64,000 nt of DNA from Petrachloros mirabilis ULC683 (GTDB taxonomy: Bacteria; Cyanobacteriota; Cyanobacteriia; Thermosynechococcales; Thermosynechococcaceae), in the NCBI RefSeq assembly GCF_009939295.1, contig NZ_WVIC01000012.1, forward strand, positions 1 through 64,000, given 5' to 3'. Shown here piece after piece: positions 7,177 through 60,977 of this stretch. The position numbers were made by a program, and so were the translations under genes. Within the stretch, counting starts at the first letter, position 1. Each line of letters begins with the position of its first letter. The notes under the pieces are model-generated. The model was not told the DNA's origin, made no database searches, and saw only the letters and a list, made by a program, of their open reading frames with translations.

Positions 7177-10100
7177 TTAGTCCGTGTAGGCATCCAAGGG
7201 GAGGCAGGCACAGACCAAGTTGCGATCGCCGTAGGCATTGTTAATCCGACCCACAGCGGGCCAGAACTTCGCCTCCCGAGTCCAGGGGGCAGGGTAGGCA
7301 GCTCGTTCGCGGCTGTAAGGGTAAGTCCAATCTTCTGCTAGTACTGCTGCTGCTGGGTGGGGGGCATTTTTGAGTGGGTTATTCTCTGGATCGGCTTGCC
7401 CGGTTTCAATTTCGGCGACTTCAGCACGGATGGCAATCATAGCTTCACAGAAGCGATCCAGTTCCGCTAGGGATTCACTTTCGGTGGGTTCAATCATGAT
7501 TGTTCCCGGCACCGGCCAGGAGACGGTGGGGGCATGGAAGCCATAGTCCATCAGTCGTTTGGCCACGTCTTCGACTTCAATGCCAGCGGATTTCTTCAAG
7601 GGGCGCAAATCCAAAATGCACTCGTGGGCCACCCGTCCCGATTCGCCCGCAAACAAGACGGGGTAGTAAGGAGCCAGACGAGCGGCCATGTAATTGGCAT
7701 TGAGAATGGCGATCCGGGTGGCCAGGGTGAGGCCCTCAGCCCCCATGAGAGCAATGTAGACCCAGGAAATGGGCAGGATGCTGGCGCTGCCCCAGGGGGC
7801 GGCAGAGATGGCTCCCAGCCCTTGCTTACCCCCTACGGTCACGACCGGGTGGTTGGGCAGAAAGGTTACCAGGTGTTGTTTGACGCCGATGGGACCCATG
7901 CCGGGGCCACCCCCCCCATGAGGGATACAGAAGGTTTTGTGCAGATTTAGATGGCAGACATCAGCACCCATATCGGCGGGGCGACACAGCCCCACCTGGG
8001 CATTCAGGTTGGCTCCGTCCATATACACCTGACCGCCGTGGCCATGAACAATGGTGCAGATTTCTTTGATTTCCGTTTCAAAGACACCGTGGGTGGAGGG
8101 ATAGGTGACCATTAACGCCGCTAAGTCCTGGTGATGGGTCTCGGCTTTTTGACGCAGATCCACTAGGTCAATATTGCCCTGGTCGTCACAGCCGACCACC
8201 ACCACTTTCATCCCGGCCATGACGGCGCTGGCGGGATTGGTGCCGTGGGCCGAGTCGGGGATCAGACAGATATTGCGGTGATCCTCACCTCGGCTGTGAT
8301 GGTACTGACGAATCACCAGCAGACCCGCATACTCCCCTTGGGATCCAGCGTTGGGCTGAAGGGAGATGCCGTCAAAGCCGGTGATTTCGGCCAGCATGGC
8401 TTCGAGCTGCTCAAACAGGATCTGATAGCCTCGCGTCTGGCTGAGGGGGGCAAAGGGATGGATTTGATTAAACTCTGGCCAGGTCACGGGCAACATTTCC
8501 GTGGTGGCGTTCAGCTTCATGGTGCAAGATCCCAGGGGGATCATGGAGGTAGTGAGGGAGAGATCCTTGGCTTGCAGTCGGTGCAGGTAGCGCAGCAGTT
8601 CGGTTTCGGAGTGATAGCGGTTAAAAACGGGCTGAGTCAGATAGGGGCTGATCCGAGCTAGGGGGGGAGGATAGGTGGGGTTGACCTCGGCGATCAAGTC
8701 AGTGGGGTCAAAGGGCAGAGCCGGTCCAGCAAAAAGACTCCATAAATCCAGTAGATCCTGAGCGGTGGTGGTTTCGTCTAGGGAAATGCCCACACGGGTG
8801 GGGCTGACGATGCGGAGGTTGATGCGGGCGGCCTGCGATCGCACCATCACCTGCTCCAGCTCTCCCTCTGCTAATACCACCTGCACCGTATCAAAGTAAG
8901 GCTCCGGCGTGACGGTATAGCCTAGGCGTTTGAGACCCGCTGCCAGCAGTCCGGTCATCCGATGAATGCGATCGGCAATGGCTTTCAGTCCCTGGGAACC
9001 GTGGTAAACCGCATACATGCTGGCCATCACCGCCAGCAGCACCTGGGCGGTGCAGATATTGCTGGTGGCCTTGTCGCGGCGGATATGCTGCTCTCGGGTT
9101 TGCAGCGCTAGCCGCAGGGCAGGCTGACCGGACACATCCTGGGAGACACCGACAATCCGACCGGGGATCTGACGCTTGTAGGCATCTTTGGTGGCAAAAA
9201 AGGCCGCATGGGGACCCCCATAGCCCATAGGCACCCCGAAGCGCTGACTGCTGCCCACGGCAATATCCGCACCCAATTCGCCAGGGGGGGTGAGCAAGGT
9301 GAGGCTGAGCAGGTCGGTGGCCAGGGTGACCAACGCCCCCTGCTGGTGCGCCTGGTCAATGACAGTGCGATAGTCATCAATGGAGCCATCGCTGCCGGGA
9401 TACTGCAACAGCACCCCAAAGGTGGGTTGTGCCCCAAAGTCATGGGTGTGGGGGTCAGCGACGATGACGGTCAGCCCCAAGGGGAGGGCGCGCGATCGCA
9501 CCACATCTATGGTCTGCGGATGGCAATTTTCTGCCACCAAAAAAGTCTTGGCATCCCTCTTTTTGCAAAGGTTGTAGCTCATGCTCATGGCCTCAGCCGC
9601 AGCCGTCCCCTCATCCAGAAGCGAGGCATTGGCAATATCCAGTCCGGTTAAGTCCATTACCAGGGTCTGGAAATTCAGCAGCGCCTCCAGGCGACCCTGG
9701 GCAATTTCGGCCTGATAGGGGGTGTACTGGGTATACCAGCCCGGATTTTCCAAAATATTGCGCTGGATCACTGGGGGCGTGATGCAGCCAGCGTAGCCCA
9801 TGCCCATAAAGGAACGAAACACCTGATTTTGGGCTGCAATGGCTCGCAACTCTTGCAGCAGTTCATGCTCCCCTTTCGGCGCACCCAGAGCCAGGGGTCG
9901 CCGCAGCCGAATCTGCTCCGGGACCGCATCGTCGATCAGCGACTCCAGCGTGTCATAGCCCAACGTCTCCAGCATGGTGTTGACCTCTGCCTCAGTGGGG
10001 CCAATGTGTCGAGGCGCAAAAGCATCCAGGGGTTGGCAATAGTCAGCCAGAGCCGCCGAGACTGTGGGGGTCGCACCCTGTCCATTCTGAGGCGAGGATA

Positions 10101-10230
10101 GGGTTGTATCCCCTTGTCCGTGATCCATCTCATTCAGATAGCGCATATCGACAGTCTGCATCGGGGCTTCTTTCATGGCGAACTCACTAGATAGAGGTTG
10201 AGAGAGAGCAGAAACAGGGTTAAAGGTCAT
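7177..10230 (-). CDS. gcvP: Glycine dehydrogenase (decarboxylating), P protein
   Basis: Pyridoxal-phosphate enzyme of the glycine cleavage system. It decarboxylates glycine and passes the aminomethyl group to lipoyl-GcvH; in cyanobacteria it serves photorespiratory glycine metabolism. The PLP lysine lies in [16 protein letters not shown], followed by the glycine-rich [13 protein letters not shown]. The two halves typical of the long bacterial P protein are both present, in 1017 residues. The N-terminal about 60 residues before [16 protein letters not shown] are variable, and several internal ATG codons could serve as starts (for example at [16 protein letters not shown]). The neighbours are unrelated; gcvT and gcvH are not in the window. 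Confidence 0.96.
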
Positions 10231-10259
10231 CCGCAGAGTGTCTAGGGGCTTGGGTGCTG

Positions 10260-10437
10260 AGAGGCTGTTTGAAAAGCCTCATTCATCCCGGCATTAGCCC
10301 CCCCGCCCCCCTCGCGAAGCGTGCCCGAAGGGCGTAATTCTGGGGGGAATCAGATCGTCAAAGTCCCCCAGAATGGGGGATTTAGGGGGCTAGACAGGGT
10401 GGATAATGCAACCGAAGACTTGTGTGTACACAGCAGC
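10260..10437. repeat. Intergenic dispersed repeat (composite)
   Basis: This fills most of the 440-base gap between gcvP and the DUF39 gene. The left end, AGAGGCTGTTTGAAAAGCCT, matches the left end of the repeat at 17166. The interior has GCGAAGCGTGCCCGAAGGGC and runs of C and G (CCCCCAGAATGGGGGATTTA) shared with the 61557 copy. The right end, TGTGTGTACACAGCAGC, is a variant of the terminal repeat of the element at 42666. No real coding sequence is seen in it. Confidence 0.7.
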
Positions 10438-10670
10438 GTATTAAGGAGGGTCGGCGACAGCCGGGGGGTATGCAGGGCATCGTTATTCACAACTAATTGA
10501 GGATTGCCATAAATATGGTTTAGCTTACCGCCATCCCCCTGAAAATGCAGCAATCATGTCAGAGTGGGCTTATCCCGGTGTAGGCTCCAACATAAGCCTC
10601 AGGCCGAAAAACTGGCAATTTGCCAGGACAGTGGCAAAATATGCCCTGCATTGTAACGCTTGTTCACACT

Positions 10671-11870
10671 ATGCGCACCATTGCCGAAATCAACGCCAAA
10701 ATTCAACACGGATCCGCGGTGGTGAAAACCGTGGAAGCCGTTAAAGCGCAAATTTCTGAAATAGGGATCACCCAGACAGCCAAGGCAGTAGATGTAGTGG
10801 TGACCGGCACCTTTGAACCCATGGAGTCCTCCGGGGCGATCCTCAATCTCGGGCATACGGATCCCCCCATTAAAATTCGGCAGTGCTGGCTCGATGGCGT
10901 TCCGGCCTATGCCGGGTTTGGTGCAGTGGATTTATACCTGGGGGCATCCCAGCCCGCTGAACCCCTGGGGGCAGGTGACAGTCCCGATGGGGAACCTGCC
11001 CACGAACGAGGCGGTGGCCATGTCATTGAAGATTTGATCGCGGGAAAAAACATTCCCCTGCGCGCCGTGGGACAGGTCACCGACTGCTATCCCCGCGCCA
11101 CCCTGGATACGATGATTAACCAAGACACCATCAATCAGTTCTATCTGTTTAATCCCCGCAATTTGTACCAGAATTTCATTGTGGGCGTCAATGGCGGCGA
11201 TCGCCCCCTCTTTACCTATCTGGGACCCCTCCAGCCCCGCCTGGGAAATGCCGTCTACGCCAACTCGGGTGCCCTTTCTCCCCTATTCAATGACCCCACC
11301 CTGCGCTTGATTGGCATTGGCACCCGCATTTTTCTGGGTGGGGGCATCGGCTATGTCACCTGGGAGGGCACCCAGCATTTCCCGTTGCAAAAGCGCCTCC
11401 CCAACGACACCCCCATCGGCCCTGCCGCCACCCTGGCCCTGATCGGGGATGCCAAGCAGATGCAGGCCAAGTGGGTGCGCGGCTGTTACTTCCGCCAGTA
11501 TGGGCCCTCCCTGATGATTGGGGTGGGGGTCCCCCTGCCAGTCTTAGATGAAACGGTGATTCAGCGCTGTGCCATTACCGATGCGGAACTAGTGGCTCCG
11601 GTGGTGGATTTTTCCATTCCCCGACGGGTTCGTCCCACCTTTGGCCTGGTCAGCTACGCCCAGCTCAAATCGGGCCGGATCAAAATTGAAAATAAAACTG
11701 TGCGCGTGGCACCCCTCACCAGCCTCTATCTGGCACGGCAGGTGGCCTCGGAACTACAACAGTGGATTCAGTCAGGGCAGTTTTTGCTGAGCGAGCCTGT
11801 AGCCGAGATTCCGTGCGATCGCACCTTCAAGCCCCAAAATACCTGGGGGTCACAGATGACCTTAGAGTAG
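10671..11870 (+). CDS. Homocysteine biosynthesis family protein (DUF39/HcyBio)
   Basis: 399 residues. The N-terminus RTIAEINAKIQHGSAVVKT and the block TGTFEPMESSGAILNLGHTD are characteristic of the DUF39 family, implicated in archaea in making homocysteine from aspartate semialdehyde. Cyanobacterial members are widespread; their reaction is less certain. A longer frame begins at 10620, but the ATG at 10671 (MRTIAEIN) matches the family start. The gene stands alone behind a repeat-filled gap. I saw no clear riboswitch in the 5' region. The usual CBS or ferredoxin partner of the archaeal system is not adjacent. Confidence 0.88.
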   Translation: MRTIAEINAKIQHGSAVVKTVEAVKAQISEIGITQTAKAVDVVVTGTFEPMESSGAILNLGHTDPPIKIRQCWLDGVPAYAGFGAVDLYLGASQPAEPLGAGDSPDGEPAHERGGGHVIEDLIAGKNIPLRAVGQVTDCYPRATLDTMINQDTINQFYLFNPRNLYQNFIVGVNGGDRPLFTYLGPLQPRLGNAVYANSGALSPLFNDPTLRLIGIGTRIFLGGGIGYVTWEGTQHFPLQKRLPNDTPIGPAATLALIGDAKQMQAKWVRGCYFRQYGPSLMIGVGVPLPVLDETVIQRCAITDAELVAPVVDFSIPRRVRPTFGLVSYAQLKSGRIKIENKTVRVAPLTSLYLARQVASELQQWIQSGQFLLSEPVAEIPCDRTFKPQNTWGSQMTLE

Positions 11871-57067: not shown

Positions 57068-57265
57068 CTAAACGACCTGGGGGGAGTATCCCGAGTTTGC
57101 GATCGCAGCCACAACTGCCTCCGCCGACACCGTGGTTTTGACCTTAACCACCTTGGTCTGCGGATCTGCTTGCACTTGAGCCGCAGGATCCAAGGCAATC
57201 ACCGTAGCAGTGATGGTTTCAGCGCAGGCCGCGCAGGCCATATCAGAAACAGTCAGGGTAATCAT
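57068..57265 (-). CDS. Heavy-metal-associated domain protein (copper chaperone-like)
   Basis: 65 residues. MITLTVSDMACAACAETITA: the MxCxxC metal site binds Cu(I) or a similar ion, as in CopZ/Atx1. It would hand copper to P-type ATPases. The in-frame start at 57337 adds unrelated residues that lie within the 3' end of rlmN, so ATG at 57265 is chosen. Confidence 0.88.
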   Translation of the reverse strand: MITLTVSDMACAACAETITATVIALDPAAQVQADPQTKVVKVKTTVSAEAVVAAIANSGYSPQVV

Positions 57266-57275
57266 GGGGAATTTC

Positions 57276-58331
57276 CTAAATTGGGGACTGTGACTCAGAG
57301 GAATGACCAGCTCGTAGTTGACCACAGGCAGCATCACGATCTAATCCCCGGGAGCGGCGAATGCTAGCCGCAATTCCCTTCTCTTGCAATAAATTTAGAA
57401 ACCCCTGCAATTGCTGACCACGAGGACGCTGGTAGGAAACTTCCTCAATGGGATTATAAGGAATCAAATTAACGTGGCTCTGGAACCCCCGCAGGTGTTG
57501 AGCCAATTCCAGGGCATGTTGGGGCTGGTCATTTAAGCCAGCCAAGACAATGTATTCAAAGGTAACGCGACGCCCGGTTATGCGCACATAGTCCCGACAG
57601 TCGGCCAGCAATGCCGTTAAGGGATAATGATTGGCGCTGGGCACCAGTTGACTTCGTAATGCCTGGTTGGAGGCATGGAGACTGACGGCCAAGGTGATTT
57701 GCAATTTCGCCTCGGCCAGTTGATGAATCCGCCCCGGAATACCCACCGTTGACACCGTAATCGAGCGCTGGCCAATGCCGACATCTTGGTTGAGCGAGCG
57801 TACTGCTTCCAGAACATTCGCTAAATTTAGCAGGGGTTCACCCATGCCCATAAACACCACATTGCTGACCCGTTGCTGAAAGTCTTCCTGAACCGTCAGT
57901 ACCTGATCGACAATTTCGTGCCGTCCCAGATGGCGCTGAAACCCGCCTTTGCCCGTGGCACAAAAGTCGCAGGCCATGGCGCAACCGACTTGAGACGAGA
58001 CACAAACCGTCAGCCGCTTAGCAGTGGGAATCCCCACAGTTTCAATAATTTGCCCATCTTCTAGGCGCAGCAGGTATTTCACTGTGCCATCTTGGCTGGG
58101 AGAGCGCAGTGCAAGCTGAGAGCGACCCACAGGCACATCAGCCAATGACTGCCGCCACGGCTTGGGCAGTACCGTGATTTCACTCAAGGAGCGAATGCCC
58201 TTTTGATAAATCCACTGGTGAAGTTGCTGCCCCCGATAGGCAGGCTGGTCTTGGGTTTGCACCCAAGCAGTGAGCTGCTGGCGCGAGGCTCCCAACAAGG
58301 GCGGAATCGTTGACCGTGAAGAAGGAACCAA
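57276..58331 (-). CDS. rlmN: 23S rRNA (adenine2503-C2)-methyltransferase RlmN
   Basis: 351 residues, radical SAM. The cluster motif [18 protein letters not shown] (C-x3-C-x2-C) is present, and [20 protein letters not shown] is conserved. It methylates A2503 of 23S rRNA and A37 of some tRNAs. The small metal-binding gene follows ten bases later on the same strand. Confidence 0.95.
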
Positions 58332-58454: not shown

Positions 58455-60977
58455 TTAAACGATGGTTTGCCAGAGAACATACCCCAAAACCAGGGTGGAA
58501 ACATGCTGTGGCACCAGCATTGAGATCGATTGACGAGCAATTTTCTGGGTCAATAGCAGTGTCAGCAATATAGCGGCCATCAAAGTGGTGCCCTGGAGAA
58601 AGGCAATCACCGCTGGGTGTGCCACCCAGATCGGGAGGCTGGTGCCCGAGAAGCCAAAGGTTGCCCAGGTGACCGGTAACAGTTGACCAGCCTCCCCCAA
58701 GCCCAAACGCAGGTAGTGGGCAAGGGTTCCCCCCAAAACCAGGGGTAAGTAGCCATAGGCCAATTCCACGAAAGGACGAGGCTGGTGCAGAATGATCCGC
58801 ATGAAGCCATGGGCGATCAGGGGTAACAGAGGTGCGATCGCCAGCACCCCCACAGACACCGCTGCATGAATCCCAAATTGCTCCAGATGTAAATTCACCC
58901 CCAGCCAGGCTTGTAGTTCCGGCAACCGATGCAGAAAAATTCCCCCTAACAGGAGCATGAGCAATGCCACCTCATAACTGCGGGGTTGATGGGTTGTCCA
59001 CAGTTCAATGCCGGGCGGACGCAGATTCAGCTCCACGGAGCGGTGGGGGCAGGCTTTGAGACAAGTCATGCACAGAACGCAGTCCCGGTTGTCTTCGAGC
59101 TGAGCTGGGTGGGAATAGAGGGGGCAGCCCTCGGTTTCCAACCCTTCCCCCTTTTGGGGGCCGCCCTTGTAGCACTGGTAGGTGGTGCATTCTGCCGAAC
59201 AGGTGCCTTGCTGGGCACGTAATTCTGTCATTGAGAGTTTGGCAAATAGGCCATTCATGCCGCCAATGGGGCAGAGATAGCGACACCAAAAGCGCCGCTC
59301 AAAAATCACCGAGCCAATCACCGCGCCCCCAGTAATCAGCAACAGCAGCCAACTGGAGAGATAAGCGGTATTCTGCAAATCCCAAAGCTCTTCCCAAAGG
59401 AAAATTAGGGCAAACAAGCCCAATAAAAACCAGCCGCCCCACTGCTCGGCTGAATGGCGGGGCCAGCGCTTGAGTTCCCGGGGCACCAGCCACAGGGACA
59501 GCTTTTGAGCCACTTCGCCATAAATCATAAAGGGGCAGATGGCGCACCAGAGCCGTCCGACAAAGGGAAACCCGATCAGCACCAAGGGCCACCACCAGGC
59601 CCAGAATAGGTTCAAGGCAAAATTCTGGTCGCGGCTCTGGGGTCCGACAAACAAAATCCCCACCACAAAGGCAAATAAGGCGAGGGTAAACCCGTAGTTA
59701 ATCCGCGTCGGCCACCAATCACTGCGGAGAAAGCGACGTAGCCAGGGATAGGCATTCAGGAGATTCCAGCGAAATCGTTGTTTTTTAGTCCCGCTGGGCC
59801 AGAACAGCTCTTCGGTCAGATCTCCTTGACTCGGTGCTTGGGCCACAGCCCGTTCCACTAGGCTTTGCAACTCGGAAACATTGCCCGGAAAGGCATAGGT
59901 CTGAAGTCGCCGCAGCGCTTCTGGGGTCATCCCCCGCCTAGGGAAGCCCTTGCTCTGGGCAATCAAGCTGAGGTAATAGTCCACTTTGACCTTAATATCG
60001 GCTTTGCGAATTCGCAGGGGGGGCACCTTAATGGAATGCTGAATGAAGGGGGATAGCGCTTTCATCACCTTTTCGGTGACGATGATGATTCGGGCGGTGG
60101 ATTGCCGGACTTCTACAGGGAGATTGGGGTCGCGGGAGACCGGACTGTAGGTTTGGGTCTCTAGCAAGGTCTTAATCCCAGGAAGCAGTTCCGAGGGCAG
60201 TTCTTGAATATTGTTGAGAACCAGGGTGCCATCCCCTAGGGCTTCCAGCAATCCCGGTTTGCCGCCCCCTCGGCCCCATAAATCGGCTCCACTGGCTTGG
60301 AGGGTGCCACAGTTGACTTTGATTATGGGTTCCCGTCGCCAGGGGGAGCCAAAGTGAATCAGGGCGGCGATGTTGTCTTTTTCCAAGCCCGGTTCTCCGA
60401 AAATGAGGACGGGCTGGCGATCGCGGGCTGCCTGTTTAATTTGCTGTCGTAGCTTGACGGCATAGCGACTGGTACCGACAATGCCATGCTTTACGCGCGG
60501 CACCAAATAGGGTCGGAGGACGGCCTGGCGCTCCTGTTCAAAGGCCAGTTGCGACGAGACCTGCTGCAATTCCGCTGCCAATTGCCGCGACACTGCTTGC
60601 GCTAGCTCGGGATAGGCTGCCGCCAGTTCTAAAAATGCCTCCTTGGGTAAGACTCCCAACTCACAATCTGTGAGGGTAATCACGGTTCGGGCAGCGGGTT
60701 GATCCAGCAAGAGTTCTGTGAGATGAATCACTGACCCAGGGAGTAAGCTGGTGGCCTGAGCTGACCCTGTCGGACTGGTGCGGTAGCTCTCCAGTCGTCC
60801 TGTTCGCAAAATGTAGAGGGCGTCGGGGGGGGTGTCTTCTAATACCAGGCGGCGGTTAGCGGCCACTTCTCGGATTTCTAATTGGGGTGCGATCGCGGCC
60901 AAAACGGGACGGGACAATTGGCCTAAGGCCGAGCGCTCCTGTAACCAGACCAGGGAAATGGCCTCCGGTGTGTTCAT
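58455..60977 (-). CDS. cNMP-binding / AAA+ / NapH-type polyferredoxin fusion
   Basis: 840 residues. Residues about 15-130 form a cyclic-nucleotide-binding domain (DALYILRTGRLESYRTS). About 165-390 resemble a sigma54-activator AAA+ domain, but Walker A reads FGEPGLEKDN and Walker B reads GTLVLNNIQEL, so both are degenerate, and no GAFTGA loop is clear. From about 420 there are several transmembrane helices with CxxCP (LWCAICPF) and CxxxCP (FWCRYLCPIGG) motifs and a ferredoxin motif CVLCMTCLKACP, as in NapH/NosR. This is likely a membrane electron-transfer protein with a sensory head. The gene begins 70 bases from the DUF1348 gene, same strand. Regulation by cNMP is inferred. Confidence 0.85.
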   Translation of the reverse strand: MNTPEAISLVWLQERSALGQLSRPVLAAIAPQLEIREVAANRRLVLEDTPPDALYILRTGRLESYRTSPTGSAQATSLLPGSVIHLTELLLDQPAARTVITLTDCELGVLPKEAFLELAAAYPELAQAVSRQLAAELQQVSSQLAFEQERQAVLRPYLVPRVKHGIVGTSRYAVKLRQQIKQAARDRQPVLIFGEPGLEKDNIAALIHFGSPWRREPIIKVNCGTLQASGADLWGRGGGKPGLLEALGDGTLVLNNIQELPSELLPGIKTLLETQTYSPVSRDPNLPVEVRQSTARIIIVTEKVMKALSPFIQHSIKVPPLRIRKADIKVKVDYYLSLIAQSKGFPRRGMTPEALRRLQTYAFPGNVSELQSLVERAVAQAPSQGDLTEELFWPSGTKKQRFRWNLLNAYPWLRRFLRSDWWPTRINYGFTLALFAFVVGILFVGPQSRDQNFALNLFWAWWWPLVLIGFPFVGRLWCAICPFMIYGEVAQKLSLWLVPRELKRWPRHSAEQWGGWFLLGLFALIFLWEELWDLQNTAYLSSWLLLLITGGAVIGSVIFERRFWCRYLCPIGGMNGLFAKLSMTELRAQQGTCSAECTTYQCYKGGPQKGEGLETEGCPLYSHPAQLEDNRDCVLCMTCLKACPHRSVELNLRPPGIELWTTHQPRSYEVALLMLLLGGIFLHRLPELQAWLGVNLHLEQFGIHAAVSVGVLAIAPLLPLIAHGFMRIILHQPRPFVELAYGYLPLVLGGTLAHYLRLGLGEAGQLLPVTWATFGFSGTSLPIWVAHPAVIAFLQGTTLMAAILLTLLLTQKIARQSISMLVPQHVSTLVLGYVLWQTIV

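Follow-up and report, generated by a model that had tools for sequence, protein, structure and literature searches.

Petrachloros mirabilis ULC683 encodes an 840-amino-acid protein in which a CRP-like domain and a pseudo-ATPase AAA+ domain of the bEBP type (NtrC/NifA/PspF family) are fused to a NapH-type membrane polyferredoxin. The gene lies near one end of the 64,000-nucleotide stretch of DNA that was analysed (hereafter, the window), and its fusion architecture is genuine and not a local accident. The AAA+ domain has lost the catalytic residue of its ATPase site and the loop needed to contact sigma54, and yet its pocket is among the strongly conserved parts of the protein. These observations suggest that a piece of gene-control machinery has been reused to regulate membrane redox chemistry. 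If so, the protein represents a clear case in which the ATPase of a transcription factor has been recruited to control membrane electron transfer post-translationally, and this within a phylum without the sigma factor that the AAA+ domain normally serves, and the idea of a pseudo-AAA+ domain acting as a nucleotide sensor becomes testable. It also brings forward an unexplored cyanobacterial electron-transfer component, one clade of which is tied to cysteine synthase and to gene islands of the sulfide/low-oxygen type. All component parts are of known kinds. An incomplete search of the open-access literature returned no published description of a fusion of a cNMP fold, a pseudo-AAA+ domain, and a polyferredoxin, which weakly suggests that the stable combination, with its conserved pseudo-ATPase in a sigma54-less phylum, is apparently undescribed.

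Architecture and distribution of the fusion

The features of the gene, with residue numbers of the encoded protein, are as follows:

58455–60977, minus strand: whole open reading frame (ORF), 840 aa; CRP-like domain, pseudo-bEBP AAA+ domain, and NapH-type membrane polyferredoxin
60615–60872, minus strand: cNMP-binding-fold domain, residues 36–121 (Pfam, model, fold comparison); phosphate-binding cassette degenerate
60507–60608, minus strand: long helix, residues 124–157 (structure model), occupying the place of the CRP C-helix
60024–60497, minus strand: AAA+ core, bEBP type, residues 161–318 (Pfam, structure comparison)
60372–60398, minus strand: degenerate Walker A, GEPGLEKDN, residues 194–202 (alignment); K200 invariant
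60252–60275, minus strand: loop 1 remnant, GRGGGKPG, residues 235–242 (alignment); GAFTGA loop deleted
60207–60227, minus strand: degenerate Walker B, TLVLNNI, residues 251–257 (alignment); NN where DE is canonical
60021–60074, minus strand: sensor I/arginine-finger segment, residues 302–319; six residues shorter than in NifA
59802–60023, minus strand: AAA+ lid, residues 319–392 (Pfam, structure model)
59304–59717, minus strand: membrane helices 1–4, residues 421–558 (structure models)
59532–59546, minus strand: CxxCP motif, C478–P482, first Fer4_5 (Pfam, alignment)
59268–59285, minus strand: CxxxCP motif, C565–P570, second Fer4_5 (Pfam, alignment)
59046–59201, minus strand: ferredoxin segment, residues 593–644, with eight invariant cysteines (Pfam, alignment)
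58461–58979, minus strand: membrane helices 5–9, residues 667–839 (structure models)

The ORF is intact, beginning with ATG and containing no internal stops. In order along the protein, Pfam matches were obtained to cNMP_binding (residues 36–121; 7.5e-16), Sigma54_activat (PF00158; residues 166–295; 3.8e-14), AAA_lid_14 (PF25601; residues 322–384; 1.1e-12), and, in two stretches, Fer4_5 (1.4e-8), with weak ferredoxin matches behind the latter. NCBIfam relates the AAA+ part to bEBPs and the membrane part to NapH/MauN, with all matches below threshold. These results, all in one frame, bear out a preliminary description of this DNA, which had proposed a polyferredoxin fused to cNMP-fold and AAA+ domains. 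The sequences that it quoted, GLEKDN and LNNI, are indeed present, within GEPGLEKDN (residues 194–202) and VLNNIQE (residues 253–259), and its CxxCP and CxxxCP motifs read CAICP (residues 478–482) and CRYLCP (residues 565–570). In a profile search of the P. mirabilis genome, both Fer4_5 matches fall in the fusion gene and nowhere else, and this gene also gives the strongest sigma54-activator-like match, ahead of five that are much weaker.

When one genome per species was scanned, 443 loci that encode relatives were identified, and the 80 that were retained all come from cyanobacteria and match the protein over essentially its full length. In a phylum-wide sample of 194 genomes, 52 have a match at E ≤ 1e-40, and in 58 near-relative genomes most matches are full length, with 56–71 per cent identity. 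The existence of full-length, single-frame relatives across the phylum excludes a chance fusion. A split into two genes in relatives, which the preliminary description named as evidence against its reading, has no clean instance in the main clade; the one broken locus (L155 in genome G035) belongs to the sister clade. At that locus (8256–10968), a cNMP-AAA ORF and a polyferredoxin ORF overlap in different frames, and a frameshift, an assembly error, and a programmed shift are candidate causes of the break.

The alignment contains 147 distinct sequences, of which 133 form clade A (>52 per cent identity, including the window protein) and 14 form a second set (39–44 per cent). In the tree, most of the second set is split off with 100/100 support, and the deeper branching order is unsettled. 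Rooting with a homolog from Deinococcus was rejected, its branch being far too long. The gene is absent from four genomes (G005, G011, G026, and G027) of the genus that also includes G028, a same-family relative whose copy (G028:C25:4197–6600) is broken by stop codons and is likely a pseudogene. Existing annotations of family members, such as 'nitrogen assimilation regulatory protein' and 'cyclic nucleotide-binding domain-containing protein', are misleading.

The cytosolic head

The AAA+ core and lid have the same fold as those of bEBPs: in addition to the matches to PF00158 and PF25601, VIA gave Z of about 21 to DmpR, FleQ, and NtrC1 (range of 19–22 across bEBPs). The preliminary description held that Walker residues had been lost, which is correct for the third glycine of Walker A and for both Walker B acids. 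It is incorrect for the Walker A lysine, since K200 is invariant (147 of 147 relatives). Specifically, nearly all clade A sequences have GEPGL(E/G)KDN as Walker A, with glutamate usually replacing the third glycine; an intact GxGKT P-loop is found in 12 of the 14 second-set sequences. Walker B carries NN in the window protein and in 93 of 96 clade A representatives (<90 per cent identity to each other), and mostly aspartate followed by asparagine or glutamine in the second set. The catalytic Walker B glutamate occurs in none of the 147 sequences, which overall have N, Q, H, or C, and mostly NN. An intact ATPase site, the finding that would have spoken against degeneracy, was therefore looked for in 147 relatives and seen in none. 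The losses extend beyond the Walker residues to the GAFTGA loop, which is deleted family-wide (28 residues between the flanking anchors in clade A vs. 38 in NifA), and to the segment from sensor I to the arginine finger (25 residues in most of clade A vs. 31 in NifA). E302 is invariant across clade A.

Despite the absence of the catalytic residue, mean entropy is 0.20 at 12 pocket positions (the motif positions plus E302, which was chosen after its conservation had been seen) vs. 1.22 for the AAA core, and none of 20000 random draws was as low. This test shows maintenance of the pocket and nothing about its ligand. Because the remainder of the AAA domain is much less conserved than the pocket, the domain appears to be a maintained pseudo-ATPase and not a product of decay, and we read this as selection on the degenerate pocket for a non-catalytic role. 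In clade A, nucleotide binding may have been lost altogether, given the replacement of the third glycine by glutamate and of the Mg-binding aspartate by asparagine. The second-set site resembles that of an engineered bEBP Walker B mutant, and by this analogy it could bind nucleotide without turning it over. Two loci have unusual AAA+ complements: the 1121-aa product of L173 (8643–12005; genome G053) contains tandem AAA+ domains, of which the first is closer to the canonical form (GEAGVGKVN, VLDH) and the second is degenerate (GEPGLGKDN, LNN), and L162 has one AAA+ domain with GEAGTGKVN and DH.

The fusion protein cannot be a sigma54 activator, because it has no GAFTGA loop, it has no match to a helix–turn–helix (HTH) family in Pfam where a C-terminal FIS-type HTH would be (the membrane helices directly follow the lid), and no match to rpoN (PF04552) above the cut-off was found in 58 related genomes, including its own, while control genomes were matched. 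In a survey of 842 genomes, sigma54 and its activators were absent from all 29 cyanobacteria then sequenced (PMC3162934). Candidates in that survey were filtered by GAFTGA, and the family described here would thus have been discarded. In the alignment, loop 1 of Brucella NtrX, one of the best sequence matches, is likewise short and lacks GAFTGA. VpsR, TyrR, and DhaR are still transcription factors. In them too GAFTGA is deleted, and they work, or are believed to work, independently of sigma54 (PMC3162934). Unlike these proteins and NtrX, the fusion protein has no HTH, carries NN in Walker B, has a membrane redox partner, and belongs to a phylum without sigma54. The proposal that a transcription-factor-like module became the regulatory head of a redox protein stands in part: a module derived from a transcription factor is fused to a membrane redox protein and its DNA-binding domain is gone, while regulation of the redox half by the head is suggested by the architecture.

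The N-terminal domain has the cNMP fold, as indicated by the structure model and structure comparison, and shares with CRP/FNR-type domains a beta-roll followed by a long helix, which in the model (residues 124–157) runs into the AAA+ domain. It differs from CRP in its ligand-contact residues. In an alignment to CRP made by eye, the glycine and glutamate positions of CRP correspond to H85 and L86 (H/N and L in the family), and the phosphate-binding arginine (R97) is not conserved, being present in only 25 of the 96 clade A representatives. The canonical phosphate-binding cassette of CRP/FNR regulators (G-E ... R-S/T) is not found. Nor is there a match to an HTH family (Pfam) after residues 36–157, where that of CRP would lie; the AAA+ domain begins at residue 161. 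The domain has no near-invariant positions and is the least conserved region of the protein, and it is missing in L150–L152 (clade A) and in L147–L149. Sensing of cAMP or cGMP was rejected because the ligand-contact residues are missing. For the same reason, the cNMP binding implied in the preliminary description is not supported and appears doubtful.

The membrane half

The membrane half was predicted to have nine helices, four before and five after the Fe-S segment, although the Fe-S part of the model has pLDDT <50. As the preliminary description proposed, CxxCP and CxxxCP motifs of the NapH type are combined with 4Fe-4S motifs and membrane helices. All 12 cysteines of the membrane and ferredoxin parts are invariant in the 147 sequences, including the eight of the ferredoxin segment (residues 593, 597, 602, 618, 633, 636, 639, and 643), which would suffice for two [4Fe-4S] clusters, the number being deduced from the cysteine count. 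If the head is cytosolic, the helix count would bring the ferredoxin segment to the side on which the motif cysteines lie, probably the cytosolic one. The Fe-S segment is the most conserved region of the protein (66 per cent near-invariant) and the cNMP domain the least, the pattern to be expected if a variable sensor is attached to a catalytic body.

NapH/MauN proteins (TIGR02163) and, more loosely, NosR and CcoG similarly have the two motifs between helices followed by a ferredoxin segment. In contrast to NapH/MauN, the fusion protein has five additional C-terminal helices and a 400-residue cytosolic head; it scores 48.5 bits against TIGR02163, for which the cut-off is 213, and no napG or napC was seen among the neighbours of the fusion gene. 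The fold of the membrane half had no Foldseek match at E < 0.001 and no VIA match above Z of 6.7, the model being weak and the result uninformative either way; by sequence, the half has weak ferredoxin matches only.

A standalone 4Fe-4S binding protein encoded on plasmid pDFI1 of Deinococcus ficus (WP_027463891.1; DFI_RS15945) is 32 per cent identical to the fusion protein over residues 405–817, that is, the whole membrane half, and has neither an AAA+ nor a cNMP head. The membrane module can thus occur by itself, and the head has been added to it. On this plasmid (L178; 5150–7431), the gene of a His-rich secreted or membrane protein overlaps the start of the polyferredoxin gene, and the two may be a metal-handling pair. 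This upstream neighbour was also considered as a separate AAA+ gene, which would have made a two-gene split, and was rejected as an unrelated His-rich protein.

Gene neighbourhoods and possible function

In the window, the fusion gene comes after a cyanate locus (cynS, an ABC ATPase, and a permease). Conserved adjacency to nitrogen genes, a check that the preliminary description recommended, was not observed: no cyanase homolog is near any of the 107 other loci with >12 kb of sequence, and the cyanate adjacency is a peculiarity of the P. mirabilis genome. By a hand count in the phylum sample, cyanase and the fusion family co-occur in 32 genomes. Because the unrelated cytochrome bd likewise overlaps in 32, the correlation most likely reflects genome type, and the nitrogen-gene link was rejected. 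The window also contains an 89-aa ORF (57068–57337, minus strand) with an HMA-like MxCxxC motif (MACAAC), which overlaps the 3' end of an rlmN-like gene (57276–58331).

No conserved neighbour was found for clade A genes. In the sister clade, cysK lies at most three genes downstream on the same strand at 11 of 13 cNMP-bearing loci (9 genomic and 2 plasmid), with a profile score of 425.6 bits (cut-off of 351), and it is downstream of none of the clade A loci examined. Sister-clade loci L136–L143, L146, L176, and L177 have approximately 40 per cent identity, an intact GxGKT, D-N/Q in Walker B, and cysK downstream. Also near sister-clade genes are ArsR-type regulators, ACR3 and ArsP-type transporters, a distant SQR-family oxidoreductase, DsrE, rhodanese, an extra Rieske protein, and a psbA copy. 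These surroundings resemble the sulfide/low-oxygen islands of anoxygenic cyanobacteria, in which arsR-like genes are beside sqr and psbA variants can also be near it (PMC5061849), and their position suggests a possible tie between the fusion family and sulfide/low-oxygen physiology. At two loci of Acaryochloris-type genomes (L157, 17868–18872; L158, 7557–8555), a Rieske-domain oxygenase-like gene is directly upstream of the fusion gene on the same strand.

We regard it as an evenly balanced proposition that quinone and a cytosolic partner exchange electrons through the body and that the head is a ligand- or nucleotide-responsive, non-hydrolysing regulator. The NapH-like body would pass electrons between the quinone pool and the partner via CxxCP/CxxxCP and two 4Fe-4S clusters. 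In the cytosolic head, a long coupling helix would connect a CRP-like sensor domain to a AAA+ domain that descends from bEBPs and has ceased to hydrolyse ATP. With the P-loop lysine retained in its pocket, and in the sister clade also the Mg-binding aspartate, with asparagine or glutamine replacing the catalytic glutamate, the AAA+ domain may have been retained as a static sensor of nucleotide or ligand that also serves as a platform for oligomerisation, and the state of the head would turn the electron-transfer half up or down. Tentatively, and with some doubt, we extend this to a whole family whose head senses nucleotide or energy charge without hydrolysis, controls the polyferredoxin allosterically, and links adenylate or ligand status to quinone-pool electron flow in cyanobacteria, in the sister clade for sulfide and cysteine metabolism.

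The main rival to a head that regulates the body is the reverse flow of information, in which the membrane Fe-S clusters sense redox, oxygen, or sulfide and the head signals to a partner such as a transcription factor or RNA polymerase, making the protein a membrane-tethered one-component sensor. Both head domains derive from transcription regulators, and sister-clade genes adjoin genes of the sulfide/low-oxygen type (in Acaryochloris, also an ArsR-type regulator), in keeping with such a sensor. However, the DNA-binding domains of both parent families and the sigma54 contact loop are gone, and 12 invariant cysteines and nine helices fit an electron-transfer protein better than a minimal sensor; we therefore consider reverse flow unlikely. 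Still less probable is a role of the membrane half in assembly or metal reduction, with the AAA+-like head as the scaffold on which a client metalloprotein docks. Such a role has been proposed for CcoG-type proteins, which share the Fer4_5 motif with NapH, and the Deinococcus standalone gene directly follows that of a His-rich protein, which may bind metal; this context is a single case, however, and in cyanobacteria no gene for a metal enzyme is consistently found nearby. Finally, it is very improbable that the head is a functionless, decaying passenger retained merely through the fusion, as the variability of the cNMP domain, its absence from L147–L152, and the stop-ridden G028 copy might suggest, given that the AAA+ pocket residues are strongly conserved despite the loss of catalysis and that G053 has a duplicated AAA+ domain.
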